Positions 8,193 through 34,517 of a stretch of 64,000 nucleotides of DNA are shown here, one piece after another (within the stretch, counting starts at the first letter, position 1; each line of letters opens with the position of its first letter). The position numbers were made by a program, and so were the translations under genes. This stretch comes from Scleroderma bovista. Taxonomy: Eukaryota; Basidiomycota; Agaricomycetes; Boletales; Sclerodermataceae. The notes below the pieces were generated by a model. It worked only from the letters and a program-made list of their open reading frames with translations, did no database searches and was not told the origin of the DNA. The stretch is taken from the NCBI GenBank assembly GCA_037178675.1, contig JAYMGJ010000227.1, positions 28,260-92,259 on the forward strand, written 5' to 3'.

Positions 8193-8275
8193 TGACCCCA
8201 TGCACCTACTTAGGCCATCTTACACGGCCACCCAAAGGTGAAAATCGGCCGAGTGTCACAGACCAGCGGATGGTA
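8193..8275 (+). repeat. Left terminal inverted repeat of the KDZ element
   Basis: The sequence begins TGACCCCATGCACCTACTTA. The best-matching core (8218-8272) contains TTACACGGCCACCC, GGTGAAAATCGGCCGAGTG and CAGACCAGCGG. Against the reverse complement of the right end, the mismatches are mostly C/T or G/A. Confidence 0.8.
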
Positions 8276-8559
8276 GCCCAGGAATAATTTGTTATCGATT
8301 GCCACGGATGGGCTACCTACTTAGATATTATCACAATGTAATATGGGTGGGCTAGATTGTCAATTAAGGGGAGGGTGAATGGGTCAAATTAAATATTGTC
8401 ATGGAAATTAATGGGAGCACATAATTTGTGCTCACTATATCATTCAGGTGGGCCCAGGCCTGCCTTTCATTCATGTCATTGGACAAGCACATATTGTATT
8501 ATCATGTAGGTGTATAGGTGAGCTAAACCAAATCAGAGTAGCAGGGGGCACCAATACAC

Positions 8560-9440
8560 AAATGGCACCGCGGTAATTACCCCGGGATTATTGTCAATAA
8601 TCAGGGGTGTTCCTACCGCAGGTAAAGTGTCACTACCGCGGGGTGGTAATTACTACCGCGGTTAATAATCACTAGGTTGGTAATCACTATGAGGGGTTGG
8701 TCATCACTACCGCTGGTTAATAATCACTACGTTGGTAATCACTGAGGGGTTGGTCATCACTACCACGGGGTATGGGTCACTACCGCAGGTTTGTAATCAC
8801 TACCGTGGGTTAATAATCACTAGGTTGGTAATCACTATGAGGGGTTGGTCATCACATCCATGGGGTATGGGTCACTACCACGGGTTGGTAATCACTACCG
8901 TGGGTTAATAATCACTAGGTTGATAATCACTACGAGGGGTTGGTCATCACTACTGTGGCTTGGTCATCACTACCGCGGCTTGCTCGTTACTACCACGGGT
9001 TGGTTGTCACTACCCTTGGTATGTGGAATGATTGCAGGCAGGTATAATTCCATATTGTGTGATAATGTAAACCACATGCACCTCCTTAGGCTGATGCATA
9101 CAACCACACCAGAATAAAAATCGGCTAATCAGTACAACACAGAACAGGACTATGCTAGAACCATGGTCAGTTATAATAATGGTGCAGTAGGTATGACCCA
9201 TGATTTTATAATATAGGTATATAGGTGAGCATGTTCAAATCAGTCCAACACAAGGGACACCACTACACTAATGGCACCGCGGTAATAGCTATTTCAAATA
9301 AGCAGTCACTACCGCGGGTGAAGTGTGACTACCACGGGGGGTGTAATAACTACAATAGGTAAGGGGAACTGCTGCAGGGATGTAATTACAATAGGTAATG
9401 GAAACTGCCGCAGGATTAATTCAACTACCGGGGGTTAGGT
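8560..9440 (+). repeat. Left subterminal array of CCGCGG-type units
   Basis: Units of roughly 20-35 bp of the form AATCACTACCGCGGGTTGGT or GGTTAATAATCACTAGGTTG repeat many times. Exact CCGCGG cores occur with decayed forms CCACGG, CCGTGG and CCGCAG. A block near 9065-9130 repeats the terminal inverted repeat in degraded form, and the text around 8509-8580 recurs at 9215-9290. The array is thus part of a larger direct duplication of about 0.7-0.9 kb. No gene is seen here. Confidence 0.8.
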
Positions 9441-9747
9441 TTAGGGACCACTAGCATATGAAACAGGATGGAACCAATGTTTGGAAAGAGGACATGCTGC
9501 AGCATATAGGCGACTTATTGGTATTTGATGTCAGTAACACACCTATTACTGTGGGAACAAAAATACATAGTGACCACAGGTATATTAAATGATGACTGGT
9601 ATATAGGTTTATCCTATATAAAGGAAGTATTAAATAAAAACTAACACTAGGGTTGTTGGATCGCTCTGTGCATGGCAATTATTCAAGGACTATGAATGGT
9701 GACATAGTATCAAGTGGAAAAGTATTAACCGCGGCAACATTTCCACC

Positions 9748-10368
9748 TGTTACGACCATGTCCAACTCCGGATCATACCCGGTTACTCCGGTCGCATCGC
9801 AGCACTACAGCTCAACTCCGGACCTCTGCGCGTCACTCCGGTCCCGGACGCGCACATACTCTTCCGCTAAGTGCGACCCTTTGCATTAATCCCTATCCAG
9901 TCGTTACTTCACTTCTCCGTCAACCCTGTAGTACCGTGAGTTCTCCGTGCTCTGTTTATATCTCATACCTTGTAGTATTTTCACCGGACCTGCTTTATTT
10001 TCATCGGACCTGACCTAGTCCTAACTCCGGTCGTTCCTTGTCCGCTATTAGGTTGTTTACTTGTCACCGTATATACTCGACCCTAGTTTCTACTTAGTAT
10101 AAGTACTCCGTAGTTTATTCTGTATAGTCAGTCTGAAATCAACCATAGTCTCTACTCCTGATCTTGCCCGTCTCTGTCTCTGTCTCTGTCTCCCCTTCTT
10201 GACCGGAACCTACGCAAGGGATCAACGCTCGTTGTCCTTAGTCGTTGAATCCAAGCGGTCACCAACTCTGGCCGGACTAATCTCTTGTCCAGCCCTCTGC
10301 TCTCCCCCTTCGTCCGCTTCTGTCCGGACTTGACCGGACCCCCTACCGGAGTAGACCCGGACTTGACA
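9748..10368 (+). mobile_element. Solo LTR (621 bp) inside the KDZ element
   Basis: It starts TGTTACGACCATGTCC and ends CGGACTTGACA, flanked on both sides by the 5-bp duplication CCACC (9743-9747 and 10369-10373). It is rich in TCCGG-type words, has a TATA-like GTATATAC near 10070 and a CT-rich stretch of repeated CTGTCT near 10170. Related sequences are the fragment at 47642 and the reverse-oriented LTR at 51330. No internal retroelement region remains. Confidence 0.9.
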
Positions 10369-10373
10369 CCACC

Positions 10374-11077
10374 GGAACAAAAGTATCAACTGCAGTGACC
10401 ACCATGGGAGGCATATATTAACATGAAATGGAAAATATAATTTGATTGCATTGTTGGGGTCATAGATGGGTTATGCAGTACACCAATGCAACCGCGGTAG
10501 CTACTGTTGGGTAGTAGAATGACACCGCAAAAGTGGCACAATCCACGGTGGTGACAGCTCATGCAGGGTAGATAGTACCACACACAATTCAGTGAAATGT
10601 ACCATTCAAATGAAATTATTTATGACGAATTACTGGACCCCTGGTGATAAGTGGGCGGGACTCAGTTGGCATACCAGGGCTGCTAAATAATTAACAGCAT
10701 CTGTGCACAATCGGGGGTAGAATATTTTTTGGGTGAAACAAACAAATTGCATTCATAAAGTAAAGGACAAAAAAGAATTTAATACATGTGAACCGAAAAA
10801 ACAATGTCTGGTGGCAAAAAGAAATGTTGTAAAAAAGAAAGTACAAAGATGTATGAATAAAGCAAATAGTCTGTGCAAAGACAATGTATGAATGGAGATA
10901 AAAAAAATATTAAGTGTCTATTTTATTCCCTTCCACAGCACCTACACATCCCTCATCTGAAACTGTGGGTGCGGGAACTGAGTTATCGGGGACATTGGCA
11001 GGACTTATGATGATGATGGGGGGAGGAATCACTTGGGGATCCAGAGGCATTCCATCACCTTCTGTAACGTTGGGAGA
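10374..11077. other. Non-coding spacer of the KDZ element
   Basis: AT-rich with one CCGCGG (near 10492). No gene is seen. It lies downstream of the minus-strand gene that ends at 11078. Confidence 0.6.
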
Positions 11078-12901
11078 CTACAGGGGATGTAAGTAGCGAA
11101 CCATGGGTGAATCAATAGGACTTACCATGGTGGTGGGGACAGAATCCCTGGCTTCATCCACAGCCATTGCATCGTCTGTGGAGATGATGAAGGGAGGGGG
11201 GCGTGATGGAGGCACATGGTCATCACCAGCAGGGCTGGGAGACCGAGGCGGATGTCTGTCTTCTACCGCGGTTGGACCCCAGAGAGTGTTCAAGAGGTCG
11301 GGGGCAATGGATCCCACATGGATCGCGATGGTGGTGGACACATCAGGCAAAGATGATGCAGGCGGCTGTGGGGGCGATTCCATGCTTGCAACCGCGGGCG
11401 GTGTGGGATCCGGTCCATGGTCTGCAGGAGGGACGTCGGGGGAGCATGCAGCAGGCGAGGGCGCACGGAAAATCGATGCAGGACTTCCAAGTGGGGTGGA
11501 AGTCTGCATGGAAGGGGGAGGGGGCAGTTCTGGATGGACAATCAGTGTACCTGACCTCAGACTCTCCATGAGCTGGTGAAGAGTGTCCATTTGAACCTCT
11601 TGCGCCTCCAGCCTACGTGTCACATCGCCCAGCTTCTCCTTCAAGTCCGAACATTCGCTGCAGGCACTTGTAGTCGTCGCCGTGGTCGTATGTTCGCTGT
11701 GTTCGGTGCTTGTACCGCGGTCCCTTGATTTTGAAAGCCATCGCGGTTGCACTATCAGCACTCCATCAAATTCTGTTTAGATTTTCAGCAGAACGGAGCG
11801 AAGGAAATATTTAACCTACTTTCACGTCTGCCCCTTGATGGGCCAAGTGTGGAAGGTCCAGCTGTGGCTGCTGGACGTGGAGAGGGGACATCCATGGGCG
11901 CGGGACTTTTGGCTTTGCGTTTGTGAGCGGAACGGGGAGGGTTGGTACGGGTTGGGGCAGCAGTAAGTGCTGGTGATGGGGCGGGGTCGGGTTGGCTTGT
12001 CCGTGTAGCTGGTGCACGGGACTGCGATCGTGACCTGATGTGCTTGAGTGACAAGCTGCACCCATGCTTCCCCTTGTTGCATTGGAAGCATGCACGATCC
12101 TCCTTCCTGGCACAGGGTAACATCCGACGGGCGCAGTGGTCACATCGATCGGCGGCGGGAAGGATTGGGAAGTCGGGAGGGGGATGGTGAAGGTCGTAGG
12201 TCTTGGTTACACCGCGGTGGGTAGGCTTCGCAGTGTCTTCGTCATCGCTGTCGACAATGGGGGCGGACTTGACGCGTTTACGAGGGCGACGGGATTGGCT
12301 ACGTCCCCGAGTCTGCTCACGTCCACGGCGACGACTTCTTGCCTCCTCTGCACCAACTGGCTCAGATGGGCTGACCTCATAGCTACTCACCTCATATGCC
12401 CTTTGCTTTCCCTTATCAATCCTCTGCATCTCTGCCTGCTCACCATCCACCCTGCCTTTGTTGCTCAGTTCTGGAATATTTTCACCACAGTTGCACCATG
12501 GATGGTCGGAGACACTGTCTGCAGGGGATTGGAGCATTTGGGGCCACTTTGGCCATGTTGTAATACCCTCGGATGGATCTTCCAGGTCGCGATCAAGGGC
12601 CATGAGCATGGGGGGAATGCTGAAACCGCGGGGTAAGTTCCCCACCACCTCTCTGACGCGGTTCTGACGGTTGTTAGTGGCATTGAACTATGTTGAATAT
12701 TGGACTCACCAGTTGGGCCCAGACATCGCGATGGACCTCCAGCCATGAGGCAGTATCCTTCGTTTTCTTAATAGCTGCTACTCTGCCGGTAATAATGCTG
12801 GTGGCATCCGCGATAACTTCTCCAGGGGTCATGGGTGTTCCGAAGTCTTCGGGAACGTTGGATGGGGATGGGACTTGGATTTCGGATTGTTGGGTGGACA
12901 T
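11078..12901 (-). CDS. KDZ-element accessory gene: Cys-cluster, Arg/Ser-rich and coiled-coil protein
   Basis: Three exons fit on the minus strand. Exon 1 starts MSTQQSEIQVPSPSNV at 12901 and ends ..DVWAQL, before a 46-bp intron (GTGAGT..TCAG). Exon 2 runs to ..SRGRRE, and exon 3 resumes KFDGVLIVQPRWLSKS to the stop at 11078. Exon 2 has an SR-rich basic tract (RGREQTRGRSQSRRPRKRV), likely nuclear. It also has a cysteine cluster CDHCARRMLPC then ACFQCNKGKHGC (C-x2-C-x6-C ... C-x2-C-x6-C), which could bind zinc in the manner of fungal binuclear clusters. Exon 3 opens with a short predicted coiled coil (CSDLKEKLGDVTRRLEAQEV) and then a Pro-rich low-complexity tail. I recall similar proteins only as uncharacterised agaricomycete families. 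A DNA-binding role for the element is inference. The exons contain CCGCGG sites. Confidence 0.7.
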
Positions 12902-13757
12902 AGTTTTGTAGGAGTGAGATGAGTGAGAGAGGAAAACAAGTTTGCGGTGTGGAAGCCATGCAGTATGTTGAACATTTATTATGATTAGGTCAGCAGATGT
13001 CACACACCCAGACTGACCATTGGTATGTCATCAGGCGCCAAGCCACGTGCTAATAATCTCCGTTTAGCTAGTCAGGCACCAACATCAACATGTAAATTTA
13101 ATCACCGAGGTATAAATGGAATTGAAGGTCTCATAGGATTTTTGAAGGGAACCCACCGCGGTAACATACAGTATTTTAGATTTAACAGTATAATGGGTGC
13201 AGTATTAGTATCAAATAGACCACACACAGCAATGCTTGTACAATTGTGATTGCATATTGTGATTGCATAGCTAGTGCAAGCGACATTATTCACACTAACC
13301 CTTATTGGATAAAATAGCCGCGGAAGGTAAACACAATCGGAAGGCATTTTCGTCGGGTAAATGTTGAAATGTAGGCTGGACACCTGAAGTCCACTACAAA
13401 TATAATGTGTGAAATTTCTCTGCTTTCTTGGAAAGCATAGAAAAGTATACCCGCAATGTCTAGTGACGGAACAATGACCGCGGGTGTGCTAAACCTGTTT
13501 CATTGTCTATTGTTATCAGCAAATACTGACCTACAGCGCTACAATTAGGCTTGTTCATACCTAAACATTTCTACAAAAAGATAGAACAATTGCAATCCAT
13601 TGAGAGTGATATATAGTACCCGAATTCCACCCTAGATTCCAGATGTCTTAATGGTGGGAAATATCTTATGTAAGCATTCGACCCGAACATATATGATCGC
13701 GGCCTGTGAACACCAAGCCCTTGCCAGCCTTCTTTATTTCATACACAACCACCAACC
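12902..13757. promoter_or_regulatory. Divergent intergenic region of the KDZ element
   Basis: It separates the minus-strand gene starting at 12901 from the plus-strand gene starting at 13758, so both promoters must lie here. It contains CCGCGG near 13156, 13318 and 13479. No TATA box can be assigned with confidence. Confidence 0.5.
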
Positions 13758-15168
13758 ATGACCGGACCAGCTAGGAATGTTAGATTTATCGATGATGGAG
13801 CAGCCAACCCTGGTAAATTGTTATATTGGAACTGTCTTTGGCATTTGAGATTGATTTTGGGCAGGTTTATTTGGTAGCCCAGGGTGGACACCTCCAAAAA
13901 GACGGTCTCTGAGCAGAACATGTATGTATCCTTCATGTACACTTTAACAGTACTCATTTTATGTTTACAGCAAGTGATAATAGCACTGGGTGGTGTCCAC
14001 CCGATGAACCTCCCCCTCCACCCGCGGCAGACCCGATGTCTATTGAAGTGGATGAAGGTTCGTTCCCCATGCTTGAATCACCTGTGGGTGCGAGGTCTGA
14101 CATCTGGGCTGAACCAGGGGTGTTGCCAAGTCCCGAGTGGGACCCTCCTGCATTTCCACCCACATCAACACCCGACCGCGGGGATGTAGCCAGCACACCC
14201 ATGCCTCAAACATCGTCTGACTCATCATCCGACACCGACACCTCAGAGGATAGCCAGGGATGGATCCCTCCCCCTCTACCGCCATCACAAACCTTTCCCG
14301 AAGTGTCCCCAAGCCCTACCTCCGATGGAAACTCATCACCCCGGCCGATCACACCCATCCGCGCAACATCACCTGACTCCTCCGATACTGACGCGTCGAA
14401 GGACAATGAAGGATGGACTCCACCTGCACAGCCAGCATTATACATACCACTGACATCGCCAATGTCAGTTTCGTCCGTTCAGTCCACCCCTTCAAAGTCA
14501 CCCCACGGATCACCATCGATGGCTGGGTCCCCACTCTTCTCAGGGACAGGTGAGCCAACTGAGAGCGGATCTAACCCAGAGGAAAGATTCTTTGAGAATT
14601 CCTTGCCAAGGGTAGTTGGTACGAGCCCCATTGCACATCGTAGGTTAGTGGATAAGGGAAAGGGAAGGGAAGCGGAATCGGGCCCGGTGAGCGGATTCCC
14701 TGCAACATGTCCCAAGGATATGGAAGGTTAGTTAGGCCTTGGTTGGAGTTTCCTACACTGACACCATCGTAGGGGAATGGTGGCACTTGCTGAGAATGAT
14801 GGCCGACCTGGAAATTTACAAAGGTAAATTCAATTGCCCGCGGCATGAATGTGAGTGCATTGACATCTCTATTAAATTGATATTGACAATCAATAGTAAG
14901 CACAGCGCGACAGATTGCAGCCCGCTTCCACCCCAAGGACGGCAAAATTACCCGCCTGGACAACTCCTACGACAAACCGCTTATTGCGATGTACATGCAA
15001 TACGCGGACAAGTTGGTGGAAGAAACTCGGGAGTGGAGGAGGCTCATTGCATTGAGGGCACATTATGCTGACATCATAGATAAGTTGGAGCAAATTGATA
15101 AGGGTGAGATGGAGGGCACACAGATTGCCATGGATCAATTAGAAGATTTACACCCATCAATGTTGTAA
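13758..15168 (+). CDS. KDZ-element accessory gene: acidic Pro/Ser-rich protein with helical C-terminus
   Basis: Five exons can be joined with GT..AG introns of about 45-75 bp. The first is MTGPARNVRFIDDGAANPG from ATG 13758, the second LFGSPGWTPPKRRSLSRT. A long third exon (about 13971-14728) is rich in P, S, D and T and repeats a motif, SSDTDTSEDSQGWIPP and SSDTDASKDNEGWTPP. The fourth is GEWWHLLRMMADLEIYK. The last begins STARQIAARFHPKDGK and ends DQLEDLHPSML before the TAA at 15166-15168. The C-terminus (VEETREWRRLIALRAHYADI) should be helical. No named domain; the long middle part looks disordered. The repeated S-D-x-D/G-W motif may be a short protein-binding element (inference). Confidence 0.7.
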
Positions 15169-15806
15169 TTACAATTGGTTGTCTGTTTTTATCTTGAACA
15201 AAAAACATTCAGTTTGTACAGGGATAAGCACTAGCATGGTGAGTATGATGGGCACCATGGAGTGATTGATTTTGGATCCACACATTGTGCTTGTGATAGT
15301 CCCCGCAGTAGCGATGGTCACCATGGCTGTAATCCACACCTTTTGTTCTAAATGGTTCTAAACATCATGGTACCACGTGAATCATATATACCGCAGCTCT
15401 CATATATACCGCGGCTATTACAGACATATGTGCTTGCGACTGTCACCCCAGTTATAATTCAAACCTTTGGCTGAGGTCAATAGTTGTAAATACCGCGGCT
15501 ATCATACATATTGTGGATATGGTACATGATGCCACTGTGCTGAGACGCCTTGGTTGTTACTACCCCGGGCATTATCCATACCGCGGCCTTACGTACAACT
15601 CCTATATACATGCTGTGGCTATTATACACATACCGCGGTCGTGATCATCACCTTGTTTTGACCCACCCAGTGGTCCCATATTTGATGTATGTACTTTACA
15701 ATACATATGAAATAAACCTACGTTCGGCGCCTCTTTTGTATATGGGCGTCATCATAATCCTCCAGCCTGGGCGGGAGCCTTTTTGGCCGGACCGACTGCC
15801 GCCTTA
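15169..15806. repeat. Internal CCGCGG array between two convergent genes
   Basis: Four exact CCGCGG cores occur between about 15410 and 15635 in a repeated context ATACCGCGGCTATTAYACATA. Decayed variants ACCGCAG and ATTGTGGATATGG also occur. No gene is seen. The region lies between the 3' end of the plus gene (15168) and the 3' end of the minus gene (15807), so it is not a promoter of either. Confidence 0.65.
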
Positions 15807-18414
15807 CTACATTCTTTTCCCCGCCATCGCATTTGTGTTGGAGTTGGAGTGATGAATCTCCTGCATCTTCTTTTGAGCCTTATGAGTAATTTGCTTGATG
15901 GGGCCACAATGCATACCTTGTGTAATGGCGGCCCTCGAAAGACCCGCGGCGGGCACTTGAACTGACGGACCACTCCGTTTGGCAACTTCGGAGGGCTGGG
16001 CTGGACGTATATCAAATTTGTAAGAATAAATTTATTTGTGATGCAATACGAAGCACTCTTACCTTTTGTCTTCAACCTTGGTTGAGCCGCGGTGGAGGAA
16101 GGGCCGGCACTTGTCACCTGCATGGAGTGAGTGCTGTTATCAGTGACTCCCTGATGTTTGTCTGCATGTAGATATTACATATATTAGCGTCAGGATATAT
16201 TCAGTCCATCCGAAGATCATTACCTTTGGGCTTAAGCAGTGAGTCAGAGCGGGGTATGTCCGCGGCAGACACATCCACCGCGGGTTTACTCTTTCCTGCC
16301 ACTGCACTTTGTTTACCTGGATATTGTAACATATCAATTGTCCTAATTGCATGTATTACTTGATAGGAACACTCTCACCTTTGCTCTTTGTCAATGGCTG
16401 AGCAACAGAAGCACCCGTGGTCACTATCTGATCTCCGGCGGTCTTTTGTTTCTCTGCATATAAATATTATATATAAGGTGAGTTCTATGTGGGACTTCAT
16501 AAGAACACTCCCACCTTTTGTCTTTACCCGTGGCTTGGGTTTGACACACACTGCGGTACCCGCGGTCGGAGGATTCCCGGACCCAGCAGGCATAAAATAT
16601 GCTGTGTTTGGGGGGCCCACTTTAATACTGTGATGCCCTGTGGAGTCACCGTCGTACAGATCCGAACTGGAATCTATGAAAACATATCAATGTATGTTCC
16701 TATAGTAATCCAACCTACCCTCTATATTTTTTCCAGCATGCTTCCGCTTTGATCTTTTTTCGCGGCCATTCTCAGCATTCCCTGCAACACATCAACAATA
16801 TCCCATTGCATGAATAGATATTCTTACCTTGCATATGTTCTTGGCCGTGGCTATCCCTCACCACCCCCGCATCCTTAGCAGGACCCATGGCATTTCCATG
16901 AGGCGGCACCGCGGGCTGAGTGTCCTCTTTGTCCTCATCATTTGACGTGTCTATCAATGGCTCTGAGTGTTTGCAAATTTAATAAGATAATATTTACCTT
17001 CCCTGCGCTTTTTGCCTGTTCTCTTTGCCGCACTCTTGTGGTTGGTGTTTGCAACCGCGGCCTGTAGCGACCCATCCGACTCTAACCACCTCTTAACCTT
17101 GAAGGTATTCGTGGGATCACTCAGTTGCCTATCTCGCCACCACTCCAATATTTCTGTCGCCTCCTTATTCGTAAGCCTGGATGGTTCCTTGAATGCGACA
17201 TTGGTGGGCCAATATCTGCCCGATATATATGTGCCGCGGTCAAGCACAATTGCTGCCCATGGGACAGCAACATCGGACCGGCCACAAGCCTGTCCTGTTG
17301 TGACACGGTGAGTGTTTGATCCATGGAAATTATTTACATACCATAGTGAAAACTGATGAATGCGCGTACTACATCCTTTTTGTCCTGGGTGTTCATATTC
17401 AGGATGACCGGGATGTAGGGGATGCCATCTGCATCTGTTGGAAGGTCGAACCGCGGGCGCCTTTTACATTTGACAATCTTTCTTGGAACCGCATCCTCGG
17501 TATCTTCACCACTTTCCTCCTCCACACCAAAGACCTGGTGAGCATATCGCTCCCACTTGTTCTCCACGCTGTCCCAGCCCTCAAAGAGTTTCCCATCGCC
17601 CAATTCGTCATTGAAGTCGTGCCTATGTGTTTCAGTAATAATATATGCAGTCATTAACCACGCTCACAGGCCATACATAACATCCCCCGTGGCACCTTTC
17701 CAAGCAGCCATCACAACCACTCTGGCACCGCATTGTTTCCACATTTCCTTTGAAAATTCGCGGGCAAACTTCCGACCTTTTCCTTCCGCGGTTCTATCTG
17801 AAGTTTCAGTACCATGCTGCCACGGGATAAGAGTCTCACCTTGCTTGGATCTCTGGGGGGGGGTGGGTATCATTCCATTCCTTGGCTGTCTTTTCTGCCC
17901 GCTCGATGTTCTCCGTGGTCAGTCTCTTTATCACTTTGCCCACCGCCCTCTGATAATTTTTAATATACCCGCTGGAACCCGGTGCATGTCCTGCTCTGGC
18001 AAGCACATCATCTATTTTTGCCTTCTCTTGGTCCGCTATTACCATGCGGGCGGTCCACCTGCGGCCATATTTGATGAGCTGTTTTTTCTTCCGAGTGCGA
18101 GAGTGATTATACAGCCAATTCTGAATGGCCTATGAAAATACAAAATAAGCCAACCTCTCCATAAGTGAGGGATCACTCACCTTCTTCTTTATCACCCATT
18201 GGTGACTCTTGAGTGTCCTGTTGGCCTCCAGCCTTTGAACACTGCTTGCAATGTCCTTGAAAATGGACTTCCTTTTTGTTGCATCAGCCGCCATCCACTG
18301 TTCCAGTTTCTCCTGGACAATGACGACCTCATCTTTGCGAAGGGGGGTCTTGCCTTGCCCAGTGGCATCAGACCTCTCACCGCTATCGCTCTCACTGTAC
18401 TCAGATTCGGACAT
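15807..18414 (-). CDS. KDZ-element accessory gene: large multi-exon protein of unknown function
   Basis: Exon 1 starts MSESEYSESDSGERSDATGQ at 18414 and is joined by a clean 50-bp intron (18131-18180) to AIQNWLYNHSRTRKKK. Later exons carry GRKFAREFSKEMWKQCGARV, GIPYIPVILNMN and VPWAAIVLDRGTYISGRYW; the block LTNKEATEILEWWRDRQ follows. Short Lys/Pro-rich exons lead to the stop at 15807. I recall this order (A-I-x-N/T-W basic segment, acidic linker, then V-P-W) from uncharacterised agaricomycete proteins near KDZ elements, with no named domain. The frame upstream and downstream of a run of nine G (about 17855-17863) agree only if one base is removed, so the copy has a homopolymer frameshift or a sequencing error. 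An upstream in-frame ATG at 18456 is an alternative start. A role alongside the transposase is inference. Confidence 0.65.
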
Positions 18415-23435: not shown

Positions 23436-24306
23436 GGGTGTAGAATGGGGAGTAATGATTGATATTTATAATTGATCCACCAACATTCCCACGTACGGCC
23501 TACCATTGTTTATCAAACAATGACCCCCCACCCAGTTGGCATTGATCAATATCACCCATTGCTCCCGCGGATATATAATTAGTTCATCCCTTTTCTCCTA
23601 TCTATATGTGATTAGTATGTCTGGATTTCAATTAGATATCTAATCTCCCCACGATGACATATAACCGTGGTCGCAATATAAGTAATCCGCTGTGAATGCC
23701 AAATGTAAAGACAGAATTGGTCGGGGAATTGACACCTCATTATTGCCTTTTTCTAATATGAATTGGCGATCTATTTTGTGAATCTCTCGCCGTGCCTAAT
23801 GGCCGCGGCAAGTTGACCCATCGATAACAAATATCCTGCGAGATAACAATCATTCCAATGTTGGTATTATCCTCTCTTCTTTGTCAGATAATTTCTCTCC
23901 TCCTGCATTTGATATCAGCAATCAATCATATGTACTGATACATCACCATTGTCCGATCGGTCACCGCGGCTGGGAGCAACCTCTCCCATGGACTTTATAC
24001 CAACCTGTGACATTTCAAATTGTATCAATTGCTCACCTTCTTATGTATTATTTACAGGTTTGGCCAATCAATGCTTACTGATGTGGGTTCCACCCACGGC
24101 TGATCTTCTAACATGATTTGTATCTACATGTTGGCACCACTCCAAAACAGTAAATTCCATTTCCTGTCTTTATTTTTCCTATATAATTTATTGATAGGTT
24201 TGAATTTCGTTGATTATCCAGCTATCACCCCTCAATCTACCCATGGTTGCCACATAAATATTCTACAATATCCCGGCTTTGCTTGTGTCCTATTTAGCTC
24301 CCCTTC
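23436..24306. promoter_or_regulatory. Divergent intergenic region before the dioxygenase gene
   Basis: About 870 bp, AT-rich, with CCGCGG near 23565, 23802 and 23964. It must hold the promoters of the small minus-strand gene and of the dioxygenase. No clear TATA box is assigned. Confidence 0.45.
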
Positions 24307-25566
24307 ATGGCTGCTCCTGTGTCTTACCCCACTGATTATCATCTTTCCAACCAAGTTGCTGGTTATATGCGACACCGCTTTTGTTCCTTGGCATTCCTGG
24401 ACTCCAGCACCGCGGCACCGCCTGTTCCCCTTGACCTCCCAGTTGACCTTTCCGTTGGGATGCACCAGATGGTTGCAACTTTAGTGACCGCATATAATCA
24501 TTGCAGTATGCCTCGTTCATGTCTCTTCCTCCAGTGCTCATCTGTGTCCAGTTGACTCTGGTGTTGACCTCATCCGGCTTGCTGAATCATTGGCATCCAT
24601 GGAGCCTGGGACCACTGCGGATAGGGAGCAAGCCTTCCTTACCAAGTTCCCTGCTACTATTTCAGGTCTTATCGATGAACCAGCGATGATTTTTGGGGAG
24701 GGGGGAATTGTAGCTTTGTGGTATCTTCCTGGTGCCCTGGCACGCCCAACACAGGTATGATCCGATACCTCTTCTGTTCATCATTTTCTATAATACCTGT
24801 AGACAAATATTCTGCAGGCATTAAGTCCACTCCATACACAACTATCCGCCAGTATAACTGGCCGGACATGGTGCTCTGACCCACGGTACTTTCATCCGGC
24901 ACAGGCCTTTGTGACTGGTTGTTTGGAGCTTTCTCCTGCAAGGCATCAAATGGGTCATTATGTGAGTGCTTACCATTCCTGCCATACATTCGTTAATGAA
25001 AATATATTCAGCATGAAAATGCTTCCATGTCCAGGGACCTTAATACCGCCACGGGATTCCTGTGGTTACAAGCTATGGTTCAGCCGACCTCAATTATATC
25101 GGGTGCATTGTCAATCATGCATCCACAGCTGTATGACGATGGAATGCAAGGAATTAAACTATCGGGAGATTGGTCTTCCACAAACAACCCCGGCATGAAC
25201 AGGGCCTTATCCCTCTGGCCCACCCCATTTACCAATATTTCCCTTATTGCAAACTGGTCCACCCCCCTCCACCGTGATCCCCAATCCCGTGCCAGTTGGT
25301 ACGATGTCATAGTAAACATGGGTGAATACACTGACTGTGTCATGGCCATCCCTACCCTTGGCATCGAGCTGGTGTACAAGCCAGGTACCACGGTTGCATT
25401 CTCCAGGAGGCTTCTTAGGCACGGGGTAAATGCTGTAGAAGGAAACCGGCACTGTTTGACCTACTATATGAGGGATAACATTCACCATTGGGTAAGGGTT
25501 CCAAGGTGTGCGGATTGGATGAGGATTGATAGTGTGGAGAGGTTGTTGAGGCCTACCATACTGTAA
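24307..25566 (+). CDS. TET/JBP-type 2-oxoglutarate/Fe(II) dioxygenase (5-methylcytosine oxidase family)
   Basis: The N-terminal exon (MAAPVSYPTDYHLSNQVAG) joins after one or two uncertain introns to CPVDSGVDLIRLAESLA and GLIDEPAMIFGEGGIVALW. A clean intron at 24962-25011 leads to HENASMSRDLNTATGFLWLQ, and the last exon runs to the stop at 25566. The last exon has the dioxygenase core. ANWSTPLHRDPQSRASWYD gives the HxD iron ligands (25270-25278). PTLGIELVYKPGTTVAF follows, then RRLLRHGV with the distal His (about 25420), and an Arg in GNRHCLTYYMR (about 25447) that would bind 2-oxoglutarate. This order and spacing match fungal TET/JBP proteins, which oxidise 5-methylcytosine in DNA. All four ligands are present, so activity is possible. 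Linkage of such genes to KDZ transposons in basidiomycetes is established; the 5' exon structure here is uncertain. Confidence 0.85.
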
Positions 25567-26603
25567 ATACTGGAAAGGAATTTGTAGAGCTGGGATGTAT
25601 ATTACTATTGATATCTCTTCATAGGAGAATTAGCAAATGCACATGGAGTGGAATTTTAGAAATGATATTGTGTGCTACAGGTGTCTGGCAACATTGCCGC
25701 GGCTACTCAGGGTTGCTTATTGGAGAAACAACACTTATTTCACCACGGGTTATCCATATGATACATGGCTGTATGTATACCTGGTACATCAGTGGTGTCC
25801 CGCGGGTATGTCTAGGGCAATCATTGTTGTCTTGATTCTGCCGCGGATTCATTTTGTTGGGACTACTTTGTGCATTTATTCTACTACTGTGGCTTCTTTC
25901 AGGTGCGGCATGTTGCTGCGGCCATTTTGACATACCTTACGCCCAGATATCAGTCTCTGTGAGCCCAACTATTACTGTCGGCCAGTCATATATGGGCCTA
26001 TCCACGTTCAATAGAAACACCATATGTCAGCCTAGCCATGTCAATGCGGGTTAGAAATTATGTGCCCTCCGTTGGGTCCGAGGCCAATGTTATTTTGGCC
26101 AACTGGTATTCCAGGTCACAACAAATCTATAGCCCACCCTTGACACACCGGATGATGCAGGTATCCACTGGCTCACCATATCTCATTGGACCCATCACAC
26201 CTCAGCCCACCCGTACTACTCGGCATCACGAAATATGGGCTCACCTATACCTTAGTGACAGTTTTACCTTGGCTGGCCCATATGCTACGGCGCCGGGTAA
26301 TAATAGCCTGTCCATCTCAAATGAGAACATCATAGTGTAAGCTCACTCGTGGTATACGACCTTAATAGATATGGGCTACCCTTGGTTCAGGGGACATTGC
26401 TATTTTGGCTGATGTACATGATGAGGGACAGTATATTCAAAGCCCACCTGTGCTACATGGGATAATGATAATGGCATCATATATGGGCTAGCCCGTATCA
26501 CATTGCAATCATCCATTCTCAGCCCACTCATGCTACTCGTGATGATAGAATATGGGCTCATTGGTATCTTAGGGACTATGCTATTTCAGCTCACTCATAT
26601 TAC
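25567..26603. repeat. Start of right subterminal region of the KDZ element
   Basis: CCGCGG occurs near 25697, 25799 and 25842. After about 25980 the sequence repeats GCCCACCCGTGCTACTCGG and ATATGGGCTCACCTATACCTT-like units, which recur after the copia insertion at about 32790-33000 and at 34385. No gene is supported. Confidence 0.6.
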
Positions 26604-26892
26604 TGTTGAAGTTGCACATGCACCCAGCGTAAACCGTCGACGAAGTGCGCACAAGACTGCGACCCATATTAGTGTAGACTTAGTAATAGTCCTCTTTAGA
26701 GTAGATGTTACATGTCACACGTCACACATCACAGTCATGCGTCACACTATTTGTTGTATATAAACAGTGTTCATCGCTTATATAATATAACAGCTCTTAA
26801 CCAGCTACTGCTACCATCTCTGGTTGTGCACTCCACCCAAACAGGTGAGTTGGAGTAGCAGTTCCTCTACGTATATAGGTATTGCTTCAACA
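26604..26892 (+). repeat. Copia 5' LTR
   Basis: It begins TGTTGAAG and ends TTCAACA, an 8-bp inverted terminal match less one base. It has a TATA box in TTGTATATAAACAG near 26755. It differs from the 3' LTR at 12 of 289 positions, every one a transition at an existing or inferred CpG. Confidence 0.95.
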
Positions 26893-26904
26893 GGTTATGA
26901 GCCC
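26893..26904 (+). promoter_or_regulatory. Copia primer-binding site (initiator tRNA-Met half-molecule type)
   Basis: GGTTATGAGCCC lies immediately after the LTR. Its complement, GGGCTCATAACC, is the anticodon stem-loop of eukaryotic initiator tRNA-Met with the CAT anticodon. Priming from an internal fragment of that tRNA is known for several copia elements. Confidence 0.75.
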
Positions 26905-27276
26905 TGTGAGTGCACTGTGTGTAGCAATGCACCAGGCAGCGCTCCAGCTCCCTGAGCGTCGCTTTAACTAGCTTGACACTGTGGACCACAGTGAGCTCCC
27001 AGCTGAGCCCCTGCACAGCCACAAGGCGAAGTCGGTCGACGACTTGTGCCAGACAGTGAGCTCCTAGATTGAGCACCTGTACTGCCACAGGCGAAGTTCG
27101 TCGATGACTTGCGCCAACCATGGTGAACATCATCGACGACTTGCGCTGGCATGACCTAGTCTTGAGTTAGCTGTTGACAGAAGTGCTTTCACTAGCACTC
27201 AGGTGTTTCTTCTTTTCTTGCTTGTCCATTGTTGCATTCACTTGCTGACTCCATTGACTCCCAACAGAATATCACC

Positions 27277-28404
27277 ATGTCCAGTGCTCTTGACAAGATG
27301 GTTCCTGTGTTCACTGGCTCCAACTGGCAGCAGTGGCACACTTCTATGCAGGCCTACCTCCGGGCACAAGGCCAATGGTATGTTTACTCGACAATGCAAC
27401 CCGCTGACGGTCACGATGACTGTAAGGAATGGGACGACAACACCAAGAGAGCACTCGGTAACATCACCTTGTGCCTTGCCCCCTCGATCCAGGTCGCCGT
27501 CTCCAGCCTCGACAGCGTTAAGGAAGTCTGGGACCACCTGAAGAAGAACTTCGGTGCCCCCAGTATCGGCTCTGCCTATGCCGAGCTTAGCAAGCTCCTG
27601 GCGACTACCATTCCCGCTGGCTCCCATCCTGCTCCTGCCATCACCAAAGTGCTTAGCCATTTCGCTTATCTCAAAGACGCCGGCTTCGAGTTCCCTGCCC
27701 CTGTGCAGGCGATGATTATTCTCTGCAAGCTCCCTCCTACTATGGAGGTTGTAGCTCAAATCCTCAGCCAGACGTCGCTGGACGAGATTAAGAACCTCAA
27801 GCCCAATGGGATCGTCAAGGCCGCTACTCTCTCCTTCGAGCAGAAAGGCACCTCTTCACGTGGCGGTGGTAAGGGCCCCCAGGCCAACAAGCTTAGCGCT
27901 GTGAAGCGCAAGCTGGCTGACCCAAAGTTCGCCCAGCAGCAGCAGCAGCCTCACAGGCAGCAGCAGCAGCAAGGCGGGTCCAACGGCGGTACGAGCGGAA
28001 ACGCTCCTGCCCAAGGACAGGGAGGCCACACACGCCGTGGCGGCAAGAAGGCTCGCGCTCGCCACGAGAACACCCAACAGGCAGCCTTTGCCACTTATGT
28101 CCACTACGATGGACCAGAACCCACTGTCGACCCTCGCGCCTTGGCTCACACTCCCGGTGCTGCCCACTACGCCCCCCCCGCATTTGAAAATACCATCAAG
28201 GCCTTCGACTTGGCACACCATCTGGGGGTAGAGCCCTCCTGCCAAACCATCCGCACCCTCGACCAAGTTGTGTCGTTGGCGAGTGCAAACCTCGTCTTGA
28301 GGAGCGCATCACAATGTATGAGGAGGATGCCATCTCCTTGGGGGATGATGAACCCTTCACCCATGAGCCTTTCGCCAACAACGAGTTCGACAAAATCGAC
28401 GTGA
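27277..28404 (+). CDS. Copia gag-like region
   Basis: It starts MSSALDKMVPVFTGSNWQQW, the usual opening of copia gag (F-x-G-x-N-W-x-x-W). Next come SLDSVKEVWDHLKKNFG and a Gln-rich basic tract (QQQQQPHRQQQQQGG) that may bind RNA. No CCHC knuckle is seen. Pol lies in another frame (one base back), and the homologous reading appears to pass from one frame to the other between about 28250 and 28300. I cannot tell a programmed shift from a lesion. The last residues of this frame after that point are probably not real protein. Confidence 0.8.
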   Translation: MSSALDKMVPVFTGSNWQQWHTSMQAYLRAQGQWYVYSTMQPADGHDDCKEWDDNTKRALGNITLCLAPSIQVAVSSLDSVKEVWDHLKKNFGAPSIGSAYAELSKLLATTIPAGSHPAPAITKVLSHFAYLKDAGFEFPAPVQAMIILCKLPPTMEVVAQILSQTSLDEIKNLKPNGIVKAATLSFEQKGTSSRGGGKGPQANKLSAVKRKLADPKFAQQQQQPHRQQQQQGGSNGGTSGNAPAQGQGGHTRRGGKKARARHENTQQAAFATYVHYDGPEPTVDPRALAHTPGAAHYAPPAFENTIKAFDLAHHLGVEPSCQTIRTLDQVVSLASANLVLRSASQCMRRMPSPWGMMNPSPMSLSPTTSSTKST

Positions 28405-31400
28405 TGGTCCTCGACCGCTACAACGCAACGTCGATGGCAATGGGCATGGAGGCCAGCCTCTTCAGGCAAGTACCTTCTGCACGCGTGCTGACCAACACTG
28501 ACACGCTCCCTTTACATGTGCGCTTTACGCCATCACTGTATATAGCGAGTAGTAACTACAATTTGTCATGTTGTGTCTCCTCGAGTAATGCATATATTTG
28601 TTCGTGTTCGAATAATGCGCGTTGTGCTGGCTGTAAGGGAAAAATGGTTGACAATAGTGAACTTTCTGGTGCCTTCTGGCTACTAGACTCTGGCGCATCA
28701 CACCACTTTACTGGTGACATAGGCAATTTCGCCTCCTACAACGCGCTAAAGCGAGCGCACTACGCCAAAATGGCTAATGGTGTAGCACTGATTGCTGGCA
28801 TTAGCACGGTATTACTCCAGTGCCTAGACCACAACTCAGGGGATGAGAAAGTTATTACACTCACCCAAGTGCTCCATATGCCAGGCGCTACTGCACGCCT
28901 TATTTCTATGGGTGAAATGCTCCAGCGTAATTACAAAGTCACTGGTGATAAGAGAGGCATTAGCCTCACTCAGAAAGCTGAACGCCTATGGTTTGGGCCA
29001 GACCCAGAAGACGATCACAATGTCATTTTTGGGATTAGATCTATCCTGATAATTAGATCTAACTACATCGCCTCCGTGAGCAAAGTCGATTACAACATTA
29101 TGCACCGGAGATTCGGGCACCCCTCTAAGGAAGTACTCCGACGCGTGCAAAAGCATACGCAGCACTTCCCGGAGATCCACTTTCCTACTGAGGATTGTGT
29201 TTGCCCTGGATGTGCTCTTGGCAAGATGCCCAATCGAGCTTTCCCAGAAAATGAAAGACGTGCTTCCAAGCCCTTTGAGCTGGTGCACTCTGATCTCAAA
29301 TCCTTCCCGGTTACGTCGTACCGGAAGTTTAAATACGTTATCACCTTCTACGACGACTATACTTCTCATGCCTGGACTATGCCTCTTTGCTCCAAAGCTG
29401 CAGCGATTACAGCTGCCAAAGATTTCCTCGAAATGGTGCGCGTCCAACATGATATGCACGTCGTTGGATGGATGTCCGATGCCGGCAGAGAGTATAAATC
29501 CGATCTATTTGATTGAGCACTCCTTGAAAAAGGAATTAAAATTTACCAAAGTGCTCCTAGAACCCCCATGCAGAATGGCCGCGCCGAGCGTTGAAAAGAT
29601 AACAATGTGTTTGGGTGGCTGCTCCCTCAGATGAGGTGCATTCGACCCAGGGACTTCTGGAGGTCTGGCAAGGCTCCCAAGGACTAAGGAGACTAAGAAA
29701 CTAGAGAGTGGAAGGGTGGTTCAGTCACTCCAAGACTGAGCTCAAAGATATACACTGAAGAGAAGGATATTTGCTTAGTAAGCTAAGTACAAGCCTACAT
29801 AGCTAAGGTAAGAGTCCAGTATCAGTACTACCAATCTACACACCCAGAGACAGGACTGTCTCTACAGCGTTTAGGGCGCACTCTCATGGATAAAGTTGAG
29901 TCTATGCGGCATCAAGCCTGCATTCCTGACTCCTGGTGGGAATTTGCATTCGCTCACGCAACCCACATTTACAACCGTACTCCGGTAGCTCGCCTGCGAT
30001 GGCGCACCCCCCATGAAATGCTTAAGGGGGAGATGCCTAATATCGACCACCTACATGTGTTTGGCTGTGGAGCATTTGTATACCTCCCAGCAATGGCTCG
30101 AGCAAATAAGATGGCTCCCAAGTTGGAGCTTATGACCTATGTCGGTGTTGCCCCTGGCAATGAGTGCAACTTTTTGTTTATGCGCTCCACCAATGCAGTG
30201 TTCACCGCTGCTCACGCCGTCTTTGACGAGCATCATTTCCCTCGCTGCCCCAAAAACAGGCGCGAACCTCTCGAGAACCCTTTTGGAAGGGCAAATCCAA
30301 AACCAGCCACTGATCGACCAGGAAATTCCCCTGATGATACCGACAGTGATGACGATGTGGAACACGACCATGGCTACCCACATCCCCAAGCACAGGATGA
30401 CGATCCAAAGCGCGAGGAACCCGAGGCTCCTGAGGAAGAGCCTAATCAAATAAATCCTCCCTGTACGCCATCTCCAGTGCCTCCACCGGCACTGAGAACG
30501 CCTTCACCAGCAAGAAATCCGCCACCTCAGGCACCGCAGCGCCCTGGCCGAGCTGAACGCCGCCAGAATGCGCCACGACCCCCTGCAGTGAATATCCCTG
30601 CCTGCCCCCAACGTGAACGTAGAGCGCCATTGTGCCCCGGTAACGTGTATGGTGAGCAGTGACATCCCGTCGAGCAACTCCGGGATATCGAAAGTGCCTC
30701 TCGATGGCGAGAAACAGTGGGTACCTCTGCAACGCCCAGTGAGGAAGATGTGCAAAAGATGTGCGAGGAAGGGGGAGCAAACCTAGTCCGTTATCTGATG
30801 GGCAAAGCCCTCGAAACCCGCGACCCTCAATACGAGAGTGTCCGCAATTGGTCCTACAAGGACATCGCTCGCTTACCCCAAGCTGAGCAGAAACTCTGGC
30901 GACTTGCTTGCCAAGAAGAGCTCGATGTGCTATGAAAGCGCAAGGTCTTTGAGCTAGTTGACCGTCCCCGAGACCGGAAGGTCATAAAGAATTGATGGGT
31001 CTTCGACGTGAAGTCGGATGGCCGCAAGAAAGCCCACTTAGTAGTGAAAGGCTTCTCCCAGGTCAAGGGATTAGATTTCAACCAGGTCTTCTCACCAGTC
31101 GTGCGCTTTGAAACAGTGCGCCTCATGCTTGTGCTTGCTGCACTTGAGAATTGGTATATCACTGGACTCGATGTTCGGAGTGCCTACTTGTATGGCAAGC
31201 TCGATGAAGAGATCTATATGGAACAACCCAAAGGGTTTGCAGTTCCCGGGCAAGAGCACAAAGTGCTCCGCCTCTGGCGTGCCCTCTATGGCCTCAAACA
31301 GGCCGGCCTAGCTTGGTGGTGCACACTCGATGAGTCTCTCAAGGAACTCGGGTTTGAGTGCCTTAAATCTGAAGCAGGCATTTTCTTCTACAAGAAGAAA

Positions 31401-32387
31401 GGCACCAACATCGTCATCGGGATTATCTACATTGACGACGCACTATTCTGCAGCCCTAACAAGGCTGTTGTTGATGCCATTAAAGTGCAGTTCATGTGCA
31501 AATGGGAGTGCAGAGACCTTGGAGAACCTAAGGAGTTCCTCCGAATGCGAATCACTCGCAAGGGTCGCGCTATCCACCTGGATCAATGTGTGTACCTCCA
31601 AAAGGTCATCGAACGCTGTGGCATGCTTAATGCAAAGTCTGCAAGCACCCCACTGCCGGCTGGCTACTATGCCACCAAAAATACAGAGCCTGTTGATGCA
31701 GAACTCCGCTCCCGTTTCCAGACGGTTATTGGGTCCCTTCTGTACCTTATGTTAGGCACTAGGCCCGACATTGCTTTTGCAGTCACCCATCTCTCGCACC
31801 ATGCCGCAAACCCATCCCAGGACCACCTGTCCAAAGCACTTTATATCTGTCGCTACTTGATTGGTACACCTAATTACTCCCTAGTGTACAATGGTGGATC
31901 CAGTGCTGGCCTGATTGCATGCACGGACTCAGATTGGGGATCAGACCCTACCTCTCGCCTCTCGCAGACAGGTTTTTACCTGAAACTTGCAGATGGCTTG
32001 ATCAGTTGGACTTCTCGTGTGCAGAAGACTATTGCGTACTCGTCCACTGAGGCTGAATACATGGCTTTGAGCGATTGCGCTCGCCAAGTTACCTGGATTC
32101 GGAGTCTACTCGGTGAGCTCGGCTATAAGCTGAAAGCTATCCCGATTTGCGGTGATAATCAGGGGTCCATATTCATGGCATCCAACCCTGTAATGGAGCC
32201 TCGCTCCAAGCACATCGACATCTGCTACCACGGAATCCGCGAGTCAGTCGCGAAAGGTAATGTGGAGCTATTCTTCATTGATGGTGCTGAGAATCCCGCT
32301 GATCTGCTCACCAAGAACTTACCCTGCAAGAAATTTGCGAAGTTCAGAGCTCAACTAGGCTTACAGTTTCCCTCTGGCAGCATCTAG
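28260..32387 (+). pseudogene. Copia pol: protease, integrase, reverse transcriptase, RNase H, with four TGA stops
   Basis: One frame carries protease (WLLDSGASHHFTG), GAG-pre-integrase (HRRFGHPS ... CPGCALGKM) and integrase (LVHSDLKSF, GWMSDAGREY, then QNGRAER after the first stop). RT follows (LVVKGFSQVKGLDF, DVRSAYLYGKLDEE, GIIYIDDALFC), then RNase H (ACTDSDWGSD, AYSSTEAEYMALSD) and the usual end (SKHIDICYHGIRE, NPADLLTKNL). The frame is broken by TGA at 29514, 30660, 30933 and 30993. In each case CGA (Arg) fits the context, for example KNxWVFDVK where R is expected. A 275-bp insertion sits in the integrase at 29592. Otherwise the whole pol is in frame, so inactivation looks recent. Confidence 0.93.
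29592..29866 (+). mobile_element. 275-bp solo-LTR-like insertion in copia integrase
   Basis: It starts TGAAAAGATAACAATG and ends CTGTCTCTACA. GCGT (or GCGTT if the first T is counted as target) flanks it at 29588-29591 and 29867-29870. Removing the insertion and one target copy rejoins ..GRAER with LGRTLMDKV, the expected integrase text. Termini TG...CA and a 4-5-bp duplication suggest a solo LTR; the family is not recognised. The net gain is 279 bp, a multiple of three, so the frame after it is kept. Confidence 0.7.
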
Positions 32388-32422
32388 CGCCTTATTCGCT
32401 GAAAGTGCTCTACGTGCAGCAC

Positions 32423-32434
32423 AGCGAGGGGGAG
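32423..32434 (+). promoter_or_regulatory. Copia polypurine tract
   Basis: GCGAGGGGGAG immediately precedes the 3' LTR, the place where plus-strand DNA synthesis is primed. Confidence 0.75.
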
Positions 32435-32723
32435 TGTTGAAGTCGCACGTGCACCCGGCGTAAACCGTCAACGAAGTGTGCACAAGACTGCGACCCATAT
32501 TAGTGTAGACTTAGTAATAGTCCTCTTTAGAGTAGATGTTACATGTCACACATCACGTGTCACAGTCACGCGTCACACTATTTGTTGTATATAAACAGTG
32601 TTCATCGCTTATATAATATAACAGCTCTTAACCAGCTACCGCTACCATCTCTGGTTGTGCACTCCACCCAAACAGGTGAGTTGGAGTAGCAGTTCCTCTA
32701 CATATATAGGTATTGCTTCAACA
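32435..32723 (+). repeat. Copia 3' LTR
   Basis: 289 bp, starting TGTTGAAGTCGCACGTG. It keeps several CpGs that are TpG or CpA in the 5' LTR, and the reverse holds at others. Confidence 0.95.
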
Positions 32724-32728
32724 ATTAC

Positions 32729-34440
32729 ATGGGCCCATATAATAACAGCCTGCCCATATGACATGGGATGGTATAATAGTGGCCCATCCATACCCCATGA
32801 GGAGGTCAATGTGTCAGCCCACTCGTGCTACTCGGGATGATGCAATATGGGCTCACCTATACCTTAGGTGAAGGTTATTTTGGCTCACTCATGTTACATG
32901 GGACCATATAATAGCAGCCTGCCCATGTGACATGGGATGGTATAATAGTGGCCCATCCATATCCCATGTCAGCCCAATATGGGCTCACCTGTACCTTTGG
33001 GGACAGACCCAGGGTGGCCCTATCCTCTGGTACTCAGCCCGCGGTGGGTACTCACTTGGGTAGTCAACCTGTGCTGTGTAATCAACACCAGTGGCTAGCT
33101 AACCTGCAGTGGGCAGCTAACCTGCAGTGGGTAGTCAACCCACCATGGGTGGTAGTGCGACCGCGGTTGGTAGTCAATCCGTGGTGGGGAATCACTCTAC
33201 TGGGTAGTTAGCTTTGGGTGCGTAGCCAAGGGCAGTGGCTAGGTAATGGGTGGTTGGCAGCTAACCCACGGTATGCATTGAACCCACGGTATAACCTGCA
33301 GTGGGTCGTCAAGCCTGGGTAGGTACTGGTTAGACCTGGGACCTTGGTTGGTGGCCAACCTGTGGTGGGTCAGCAGTAGCTAGCTAACCCATGGTGGGTA
33401 GCCAACCCGTGGTATGTATTGAACCTGCGGTGTCACCTGCATGGGATAATCAACCCACAATGGGCGGTCACCCCTGGGTAGGTACGTGGTTGGTAGTACG
33501 ACCACGGTTGGTAGTCAACCCGCGGTGGAGAGTCATCAGTGGGTAGCTAACCCATATTGGTCAGCTAACCCGCGGCATGTATTGAACCCGTGGTGTAACC
33601 TGCAGTAGGTGGTCAACCAGGGGTAGGTACATGGTTAAAGCTGGGACCACGGTTTGTGGCCAACCCATGGTGGGTACTCACTCCACTGGTTAGTAAACCT
33701 GAACTATGTAGTCAACAAGGCCAGCTAACCCATGGTGGGCAGCTAACCCGCAGTAAGTATTGAACCTGCGGTTTTTGCAGTGGGAGTCGACCCACAATGG
33801 GCAGTCACCCCTGGGTTGGTAGTGCGACCACGGTGTAGTCAACCCCCGCTGTGTAGTCAACAGTAGTGGGTGGATAACCGGTGTTGGGCAGCTAACCCGC
33901 GGTGTGACCTGCAGTGGATGGTCAACCCTGGGTAGGTACATGGTTGGAAATAGTTGCTGGCCAACCTAACCCGCACGAGTAGTTAACCCTGGTTAGTAGT
34001 GGGCCCGTAGTGGGACCGTGGTTTGTAGTAATCCCGCGGCGTGTAGTAATCCTGTGGTGTGTGATGCCTGTATATGTATAGTCAGCTGTAGTAGTCCATC
34101 AATGGTAAGTAGTCAACCTGCGGTAGTCAACCCCAGTAGTTCACCCACGGTAATGGACCCAGTTCTGCTGGTAGGTTGATTAGATTCATTCCTACTGTAT
34201 GCAGTAGTATCTATTTTTGCTAGCCCACCCCATACCTTTGCATTCCAGTAAATCTAGGCTCATCCATTAATGTGCACCCAGTAAGATTGTGGCCCACCAA
34301 GATGTCATGATGACAATTCCTATATCCCTACCACAACCCCTCCTTAACTACCACCATAGCCCACCCATATCACATGGTAAAAAAATCATAGTGTGTAAGC
34401 CCACCCGTATTACTCGGTGATACTCCATCCATGGGCTCCT
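32729..34440 (-). repeat. Right subterminal array of the KDZ element
   Basis: Tens of units of the type GGTAGTCAACCCGCGGTGG and GCAGCTAACCCGCGGTGTG fill about 33000-34170, with spacers such as GGGTAGGTACATGGTT. Read on the minus strand they become CCACCGCGGGTTGACTACC, close to the left-array unit ATCACTACCGCGGGTTGGT. The two arrays therefore face each other. About six exact CCGCGG cores remain among many CCATGG, CCACGG, CCGTGG and CTGCGG variants. No gene is seen. Confidence 0.8.
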
Positions 34441-34517
34441 GTCCACTGGCCCATGACACTCGGCCAATTTTCACCTTCGGGTGGCTGTGTAAGACAGGAC
34501 AAGGTAGGTACATTATG
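34441..34517 (-). repeat. Right terminal inverted repeat of the KDZ element
   Basis: Inverted match to 8193-8275 through blocks GACACTCGGCCAATTTTCAC, GGGTGGCTGTGTAAGACAGG and GTAGGTACATTATG at the edge. The outermost bases are less alike than the core. Confidence 0.8.

Follow-up and report, generated by a model that had tools for sequence, protein, structure and literature searches.

A stretch of 64,000 nucleotides from Scleroderma bovista (contig JAYMGJ010000227.1, positions 28,260 to 92,259), called the window here, carries a DNA transposon of the KDZ superfamily in which the palindrome CCGCGG is concentrated. All 61 exact copies in the window were located: 59 lie in the element, two lie outside it, at 40577 and 51518, and the copia retrotransposon nested in the element has none. 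The original prediction, made from the sequence alone, had given the same distribution as an approximate count by eye. The element also encodes a predicted protein with a Zn2Cys6-type cluster and a TET/JBP dioxygenase. We put at about 0.55 the probability that the palindromes are element-wide sites of this predicted Zn2Cys6 protein, which would mark the element as self and bring the TET/JBP enzyme to act there against DNA methylation.

The element without its copia insertion (19,457 bp) contains 59 CCGCGG where 1.80 were expected from dinucleotides (z = 37.7), which places this word first among the 4096 hexamers. The same word ranks 2691 in the flanks (37,675 bp), with 2 copies found and 3.1 expected, and the hexamer count against flanks and dinucleotide control that had been proposed as a check confirmed the observation. 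Dinucleotide-preserving shuffles of the element (n = 300) gave a mean of 1.70 copies and a maximum of 6, and a control with shuffles of the whole window (n = 100) had an expectation of 5.82 and a largest value of 16. The probability that at least 59 of the 61 copies would land in the element by chance is 2e-25. Genome-wide (51.8 Mb) the count is ordinary, 7400 copies or one per 7.0 kb, with 7239 of the reversed pattern. Upstream of the copia insertion the sites are spaced in a random-like manner, with a mean gap of 332 bp and a coefficient of variation of 0.94. A flanking context [A/T/C]ACCGCGG[G/C/T] had also been suggested; A is indeed preferred at position -1, but more weakly than claimed (A 44%, T 8%).

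The sites are not confined to any one kind of sequence. Conserved coding pieces (6549 bp) carry 13 of them and the remaining 12,908 bp carry 46, so the statement that the word is retained in protein-coding exons was correct. The coding sites occur in all three codon phases (6, 5 and 2), and none of 2000 synonymous-codon shuffles of these pieces reached 13 (mean 2.04, standard deviation 1.36), which rules out codon use as the origin of the word, as had been anticipated. An origin in tandem repeats, as for the targets of the plant VANC proteins discussed below, was ruled out for most sites, since only 5 of the 59 lie in tandem arrays and 8 to 11 touch any repeat inside the element. The other 48 to 51 are in unique sequence, for which the expectation is about 1.6.

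Two close relatives of the element were used to follow the sites through time. The complete copy on contig C202 (19,441 bp, 82% identical where aligned) has 67 CCGCGG, and 47 occur in the 16.8 kb analysed of the copy on C343, where 1.2 were expected. In the alignment of window and C202 copies (16.2 kb, 82%), 41 sites of the former and 48 of the latter were covered and 21 were common, that is 51% of those of the window, whereas other hexamers were common at 43% and two-CpG hexamers at 38%. In the comparisons with C343 (77% identity), sites were kept in 6 of 13 cases for the window and in 8 of 15 for C202, against 24-29% for two-CpG hexamers. With C343 as the outgroup, 27 sites were alignable in all three copies (58 were not); 8 were present in all three and 4 in the window and C202 only, while 8 had been lost and 7 apparently gained. 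All 8 inferred losses were C-to-T or G-to-A changes at CpG. Individual sites thus decay and others replace them, with no loss of density. Tolerance of variants at the centre of the word (CCRYGG) was considered, as CCACGG and CCGTGG together number 38 in the window against 9.2 expected, and was rejected, since C202 has 23 of them versus 26 of the CTGCGG type.

The recount in other KDZ elements of the genome, also proposed with the original prediction, confirmed the signal in part of one clade and did not extend it to KDZ elements at large. Of the 48 KDZ loci surveyed, 12 belong to the clade of the window element, with which they share 74-96% identity over the KDZ piece, and 36 lie outside; 33 loci had a match long enough for the tree, and the other 15, including L030 and L052 without any match, were counted outside by their low similarity. 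Within the clade two words are found. Elements of the window, C202, C343 and C766 form the CCGCGG class, and those of C324, C463, C203, C157 and C340 are enriched in CCGG, 2.3 to 4.5-fold. CCGG is the strongest palindromic 4-mer in C324 (93 observed, 33.4 expected, 10.5 kb), C463 (53 and 16.4, 10 kb) and C203 (51 and 11.4, 6.9 kb) and is weaker in C157 (13 and 5.7) and C340 (20 and 8.6), with 4 kb each. The coding pieces of C324 (4935 bp) contain 44 CCGG against 27.4 expected, a number reached in 0 of 1000 shuffles, and 1 CGCG against 10. CCGG is at or under expectation in the CCGCGG class, and 4-kb pieces of C324, C463, C203 and C157 have no CCGCGG and that of C340 has 3. The KDZ tree unites the CCGCGG elements in one group (support 0.96), so a single switch of word suffices.

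An unbiased search of all 4- and 6-base palindromes placed CCGCGG or CCGG first in 9 of the 12 clade loci and in 3 of the 36 others (L006, L043 and L052). The remaining clade loci are L050 (CTGCAG first, CCGCGG second), L045, which is decayed, and L048, at a contig end. In the 35 outside loci other than L043 (122.8 kb) there are 8 CCGCGG, one per 15 kb, and the 5 kb of L043 contain 13. In 35 of the 36 outside loci the z of CCGCGG is 2.5 or less. With these values, and with about half of the clade using CCGG, CCGCGG was rejected as a trait of all KDZ elements.

Several further observations were made on these loci. In the distant family of L043 (C140:37356-42355) CCGCGG lies in tandem arrays of 168 bp and 14 bp, together with many TGTACA; L001 and L002 (C43) share its CCGCGG-containing words, and its near relative L018 has no CCGCGG near the KDZ domain. 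Beside CCGG-class loci, the stretches L055 (C203:14121-15120) and L057 (C590:16500-17499) have 0 and 1 CpG per kb at ordinary G+C, as though methylation and deamination had used them up. L020 (C403), L044 (C373) and L048 (C457) are rich in words like GGAGTAA and CTTACTCCG, which may represent a further word family or subterminal repeats.

The candidate reader of the word is a predicted gene on the minus strand of the element (Table 1), whose protein has, by eye, a Zn2Cys6-type cluster, a basic stretch and then a coiled-coil-like stretch. The cysteine spacing of the window cluster fits the pattern used for scanning, C-x2-C-x6-C-x5..12-C-x2-C-x6..8-C, as do the clusters in relatives. Four matches were obtained in the window and the loci scanned first, and those of the window, C202 and C324 lie in homologous genes; homologues were subsequently found in C343 and C463. 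Genome searches for the gene returned 143 and 139 matches. The six cysteines are invariant in 18 aligned sequences, which is no independent test because these rows had been picked by that pattern. Of 17 small cluster pieces, 15 had a cluster-like stretch and 13 entered the 18-row alignments; L066 (third cysteine lost), L074 (spacing) and L069 and L071 (no stretch output) were left out.

A cluster match was found within 20 kb at 9 of the 12 clade loci. At C766, C203 and C457 the expected place of the gene, about 8.6 kb upstream of the KDZ domain, is at or past the contig end; the C306 sister of C766 carries the gene. Over all 48 loci, 12 have a cluster match within 20 kb, three of them outside the clade (L026, L034 and L052), and 10 of these 12 carry a word at z of at least 2.5, compared with 4 (L006, L040, L043 and L046) of the 36 lacking such a match. 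The Fisher value of 8e-6 for this association is only indicative, since the thresholds (z 2.5 and 20 kb) were set after inspection of the data, and several of the loci represent copies of a single family. No cluster gene was present at the expected place in the stretches fetched for L043 and L006.

The two word classes differ in the loop after the second cysteine. It reads CARRMLPC, CARRQLPC or CIRRALPC (RRxLP) in CCGCGG elements and CKRAGRAC, CRKGDKMC or CIQRDRWC in CCGG elements. The C766/C306 family, which uses CCGCGG, and C324 are about equally distant from the window in the KDZ piece (78-79%), yet the former keeps the loop and in the latter it is replaced. This correlation covers a single clade of one genome, with about six types of cluster. 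In the old copy L050 CCGCGG occurs 3 times and CTGCAG, the word after double decay, 8 times, and its cluster, 11.7 kb away on the same contig, reads CNYCACCQLPC instead of CDYCARRQLPC; judging from its sequence, word and cluster have both been lost.

AlphaFold2 models of the clusters had block means of 84-91 pLDDT over residues 11-50 and a short helix at each CxxC. For two models, 19 of 20 and 9 of 9 solved chains matched by Foldseek were Zn2Cys6 proteins (Gal4, Ppr1, Put3, Leu3, Hap1, Pho7 and 1cld), the remaining one being CBF3, with weak E-values. Pfam Zn_clus (PF00172) matched 2 of 8 cluster sequences weakly (best E 0.012), and the protein of the window gave no PF00172 match in the Pfam profile search. 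Outside this genome one homologous protein was found, P0001, matching in its C-terminal part only; viral contigs gave no match with one KDZ query.

Yeast Pdr1 and Pdr3 have the Zn2Cys6 fold. According to passages of PMC3091778, their site CCGCGG consists of CGG triplets that point in opposite directions. The candidate reader resembles them and other fungal Zn2Cys6 factors in cysteine spacing, predicted fold (a weak match), coiled-coil-like stretch and the word itself. It differs in being encoded by the element, with dozens of sites across one mobile element, in a flanking base preference opposite to that of the Pdr element, and in a loop without the lysines that are usual in fungal Zn2Cys6 factors. 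The idea in the original prediction that an element-encoded protein reads the site thus fits the predicted Zn2Cys6-type protein, a type to which yeast CCGCGG factors belong, and the TET/JBP enzyme; the word is not KDZ-wide. We infer that the candidate protein reads CCGCGG as a dimer, like Pdr1/Pdr3; CCGG, too, is made of two opposed CGG triplets, overlapping. The cluster domain of the window would then read ACCGCGGT and that of C324 a CCGG-type site, with the loop after the second cysteine setting the specificity.

A precedent exists in the VANDAL transposons of Arabidopsis, whose VANC proteins recognise short words peculiar to each family and relieve their own copies of methylation, according to passages of PMC5735166 and PMC10398659. 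There too the copies of a DNA transposon are enriched for a short word that is rare elsewhere, and sister families have other words. Unlike here, where sites are mostly single and run through exons, VANC words lie mainly in non-coding tandem repeats, in one orientation. No TET/JBP enzyme is mentioned in these passages. The Pdr1/Pdr3 site, the CGG geometry, the TET/JBP genes in the window and C324 elements (55% identical in this piece) and the VANC precedent together lead us to read the words as a self-address.

The sites dispersed over exons, introns and spacers would thus serve as an address for the element's own zinc-cluster protein. Bound there, it may bring the TET/JBP dioxygenase, or some other activation, to the element, a step that we propose with less support than the reading of the word; oxidation would counter DNA methylation and lift silencing from the element's own DNA. 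The many sites along 19 kb would make a signal over the whole element, beyond what isolated host sites can give, since the density is lower elsewhere, about 20 to 57 times in the genome, the other KDZ loci and the flanks. More tentatively, the clade as a whole may write a family-specific palindrome, CCGCGG or CCGG, along the full length of its elements and also in their exons, through which its own Zn2Cys6 proteins aim 5-methylcytosine oxidation at self. Word and reader would then coevolve, in a system that arose independently of plant VANC. VANC is not known to be a zinc-cluster protein. A point against the self-address is that oxidised methylcytosine was spread widely over other repeats in two mushrooms, contrary to strict self-targeting, and Kojima 2025 speculates that TET/JBP oxidation is non-targeted (passages of PMC12730594).

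The KDZ transposase itself, through its N-terminal part, could instead bind CCGCGG for synapsis, titration or transposition immunity, which we consider unlikely. Repeated DNA near both ends contains CCGCGG (8630-9014), 8 to 11 of the 59 sites being in repeats, and the L043 family has its arrays near the KDZ domain with no cluster gene detected. With an identity of only 48% between window and C324 in its first exon piece, the transposase could have changed its specificity. However, transposase sites are usually near element ends, and here most sites are in unique sequence and 13 in coding pieces; the KDZ domain (78%) and the cysteine-rich exon (64%) are also rather similar between elements with different words.

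The other accessory gene of the element (Table 1) is an improbable reader. It is conserved, basic and element-encoded, and its divergence between word classes is like that of the cluster gene (39-45% in 3 of 4 pieces); the fourth piece, Acc1, is conserved only in C202 and C343. By eye, its stretch AIQNWLYNHSRTRKKK resembles a homeodomain recognition helix. No Pfam family scored above the cut-off for this gene, and no DNA-binding family was recognised in it. Homeodomains prefer AT-rich sites, not CCGCGG.

Equally doubtful is a host zinc-cluster or CpG-binding factor, for which the element would gather sites for transcription or opening. Fungi carry many Zn2Cys6 genes of their own. In yeast, CCGCGG is the site of a host factor (passages of PMC3091778). 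On the other hand, a single host factor common to all elements does not easily explain why sister elements of this genome use CCGG and contain little or no CCGCGG, and sites also lie in exons. A mutational or compositional effect, with CCGCGG spared from CpG decay or made by biased repair or conversion, is very improbable. In its favour, the ratio of observed to expected CpG is 0.49 once the word is left aside, compared with 0.66 for the flanks, and in six elements the word accounts for 18-33% of the CpGs. Against it, sparing alone cannot make 59 sites where composition only predicts 3.8 (pure sparing is ruled out on this count), GCGC, TCGA and ACGT are under expectation in the window element, and the inferred losses are themselves CpG transitions.

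The KDZ domain PF18758 was found at 20552-20929 (E 3.5e-29, above the cut-off), which assigns the element to KDZ. Its own DNA amounts to 19.6 kb plus the nested copia, and its ends by target-site duplication are 1 and 2 bases off the limits first given. In C202 the duplication is perfect (CAGATAG, 7 of 7 bp), and in the window 6 of 7 bases agree; a G in front is common to both sides as well, so the duplication may be of 8 bp. In its KDZ transposase, TET/JBP gene and 7-bp target duplication (C202) the element is like the Kyakuja, or TET-bearing KDZ, elements of mushrooms as passages of PMC12730594 describe them. The two Laccaria Kyakuja families of Kojima 2025 have CA..TG ends and no terminal inverted repeats (same passages), unlike the window element with its degenerate repeats (74% identity) and its termini GACCCC (left) and ..TGTG (right), and it is therefore filed only as KDZ. 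Repeat pairs of other mobile DNA flank the element on both sides (4917-5275/45032-45392 and 1879-2194/47159-47474, 86-90% identity).

Table 1. Features of the KDZ element and its borders, in window coordinates
Feature	Position	Strand	Basis or remark
KDZ-superfamily DNA transposon	8194..34519	+	Target-site duplication; alignment to the complete C202 relative
Left target-site duplication, CCTAATT	8187..8193		6 of 7 bases equal to right copy
Right target-site duplication, CCTAATC	34520..34526		Pairs with left copy
Left degenerate terminal inverted repeat	8200..8376		Pairs with 34336-34513, 74% identity, blastn
Right degenerate terminal inverted repeat	34336..34513		Pairs with 8200-8376
CCGCGG palindromes (n = 59)	8568..34039		First start 8568, last start 34034
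Predicted zinc-cluster gene, 576 aa	exons 12901-12710, 12663-11820, 11772-11079	-	Open reading frames and consensus splice sites
Cys6 cluster CDHCARRMLPCARKEDRACFQCNKGKHGC	12058..12144	-	Pattern scan
Pro/Ser-rich open reading frame	13961..14731	+	Counterpart at same position in C324 element
Accessory gene, several exons	16957..18480	-	3 of 4 pieces conserved, 39-98%, in four relatives
KDZ transposase gene, exon pieces	18841..22320	+	PF18758 and conserved pieces
Cysteine-rich exon, upstream part of KDZ transposase gene	19162-19410	+	Conserved piece
TET/JBP dioxygenase exon	25027..25566	+	PF12851, E 5.6e-16
Nested copia retrotransposon	26202..32968 (limits approximate)	+	Repeats 26604-26892 and 32435-32723; no CCGCGG

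In the main text of Kojima 2025 (PMC12730594) the terms 'zinc' and 'CCGCGG' have 0 occurrences, and the four 'motif' passages of a paper on oxidised methylcytosine (PMC8889193) contain no sequence-motif analysis and no 'CCGG'. Literature searches, mostly of records without full text, returned no paper on a CCGCGG word or a cluster gene in TET-bearing elements. The code word and its candidate reader bear on why mushroom transposons carry TET/JBP genes and on whether the action of these enzymes is targeted, and two natural specificities, CCGCGG and CCGG, are available to compare. If the self-address is real, sequence-specific anti-silencing would be known from a second case, independent of the first, and selection for a short DNA word would act across the exons of a mobile element.

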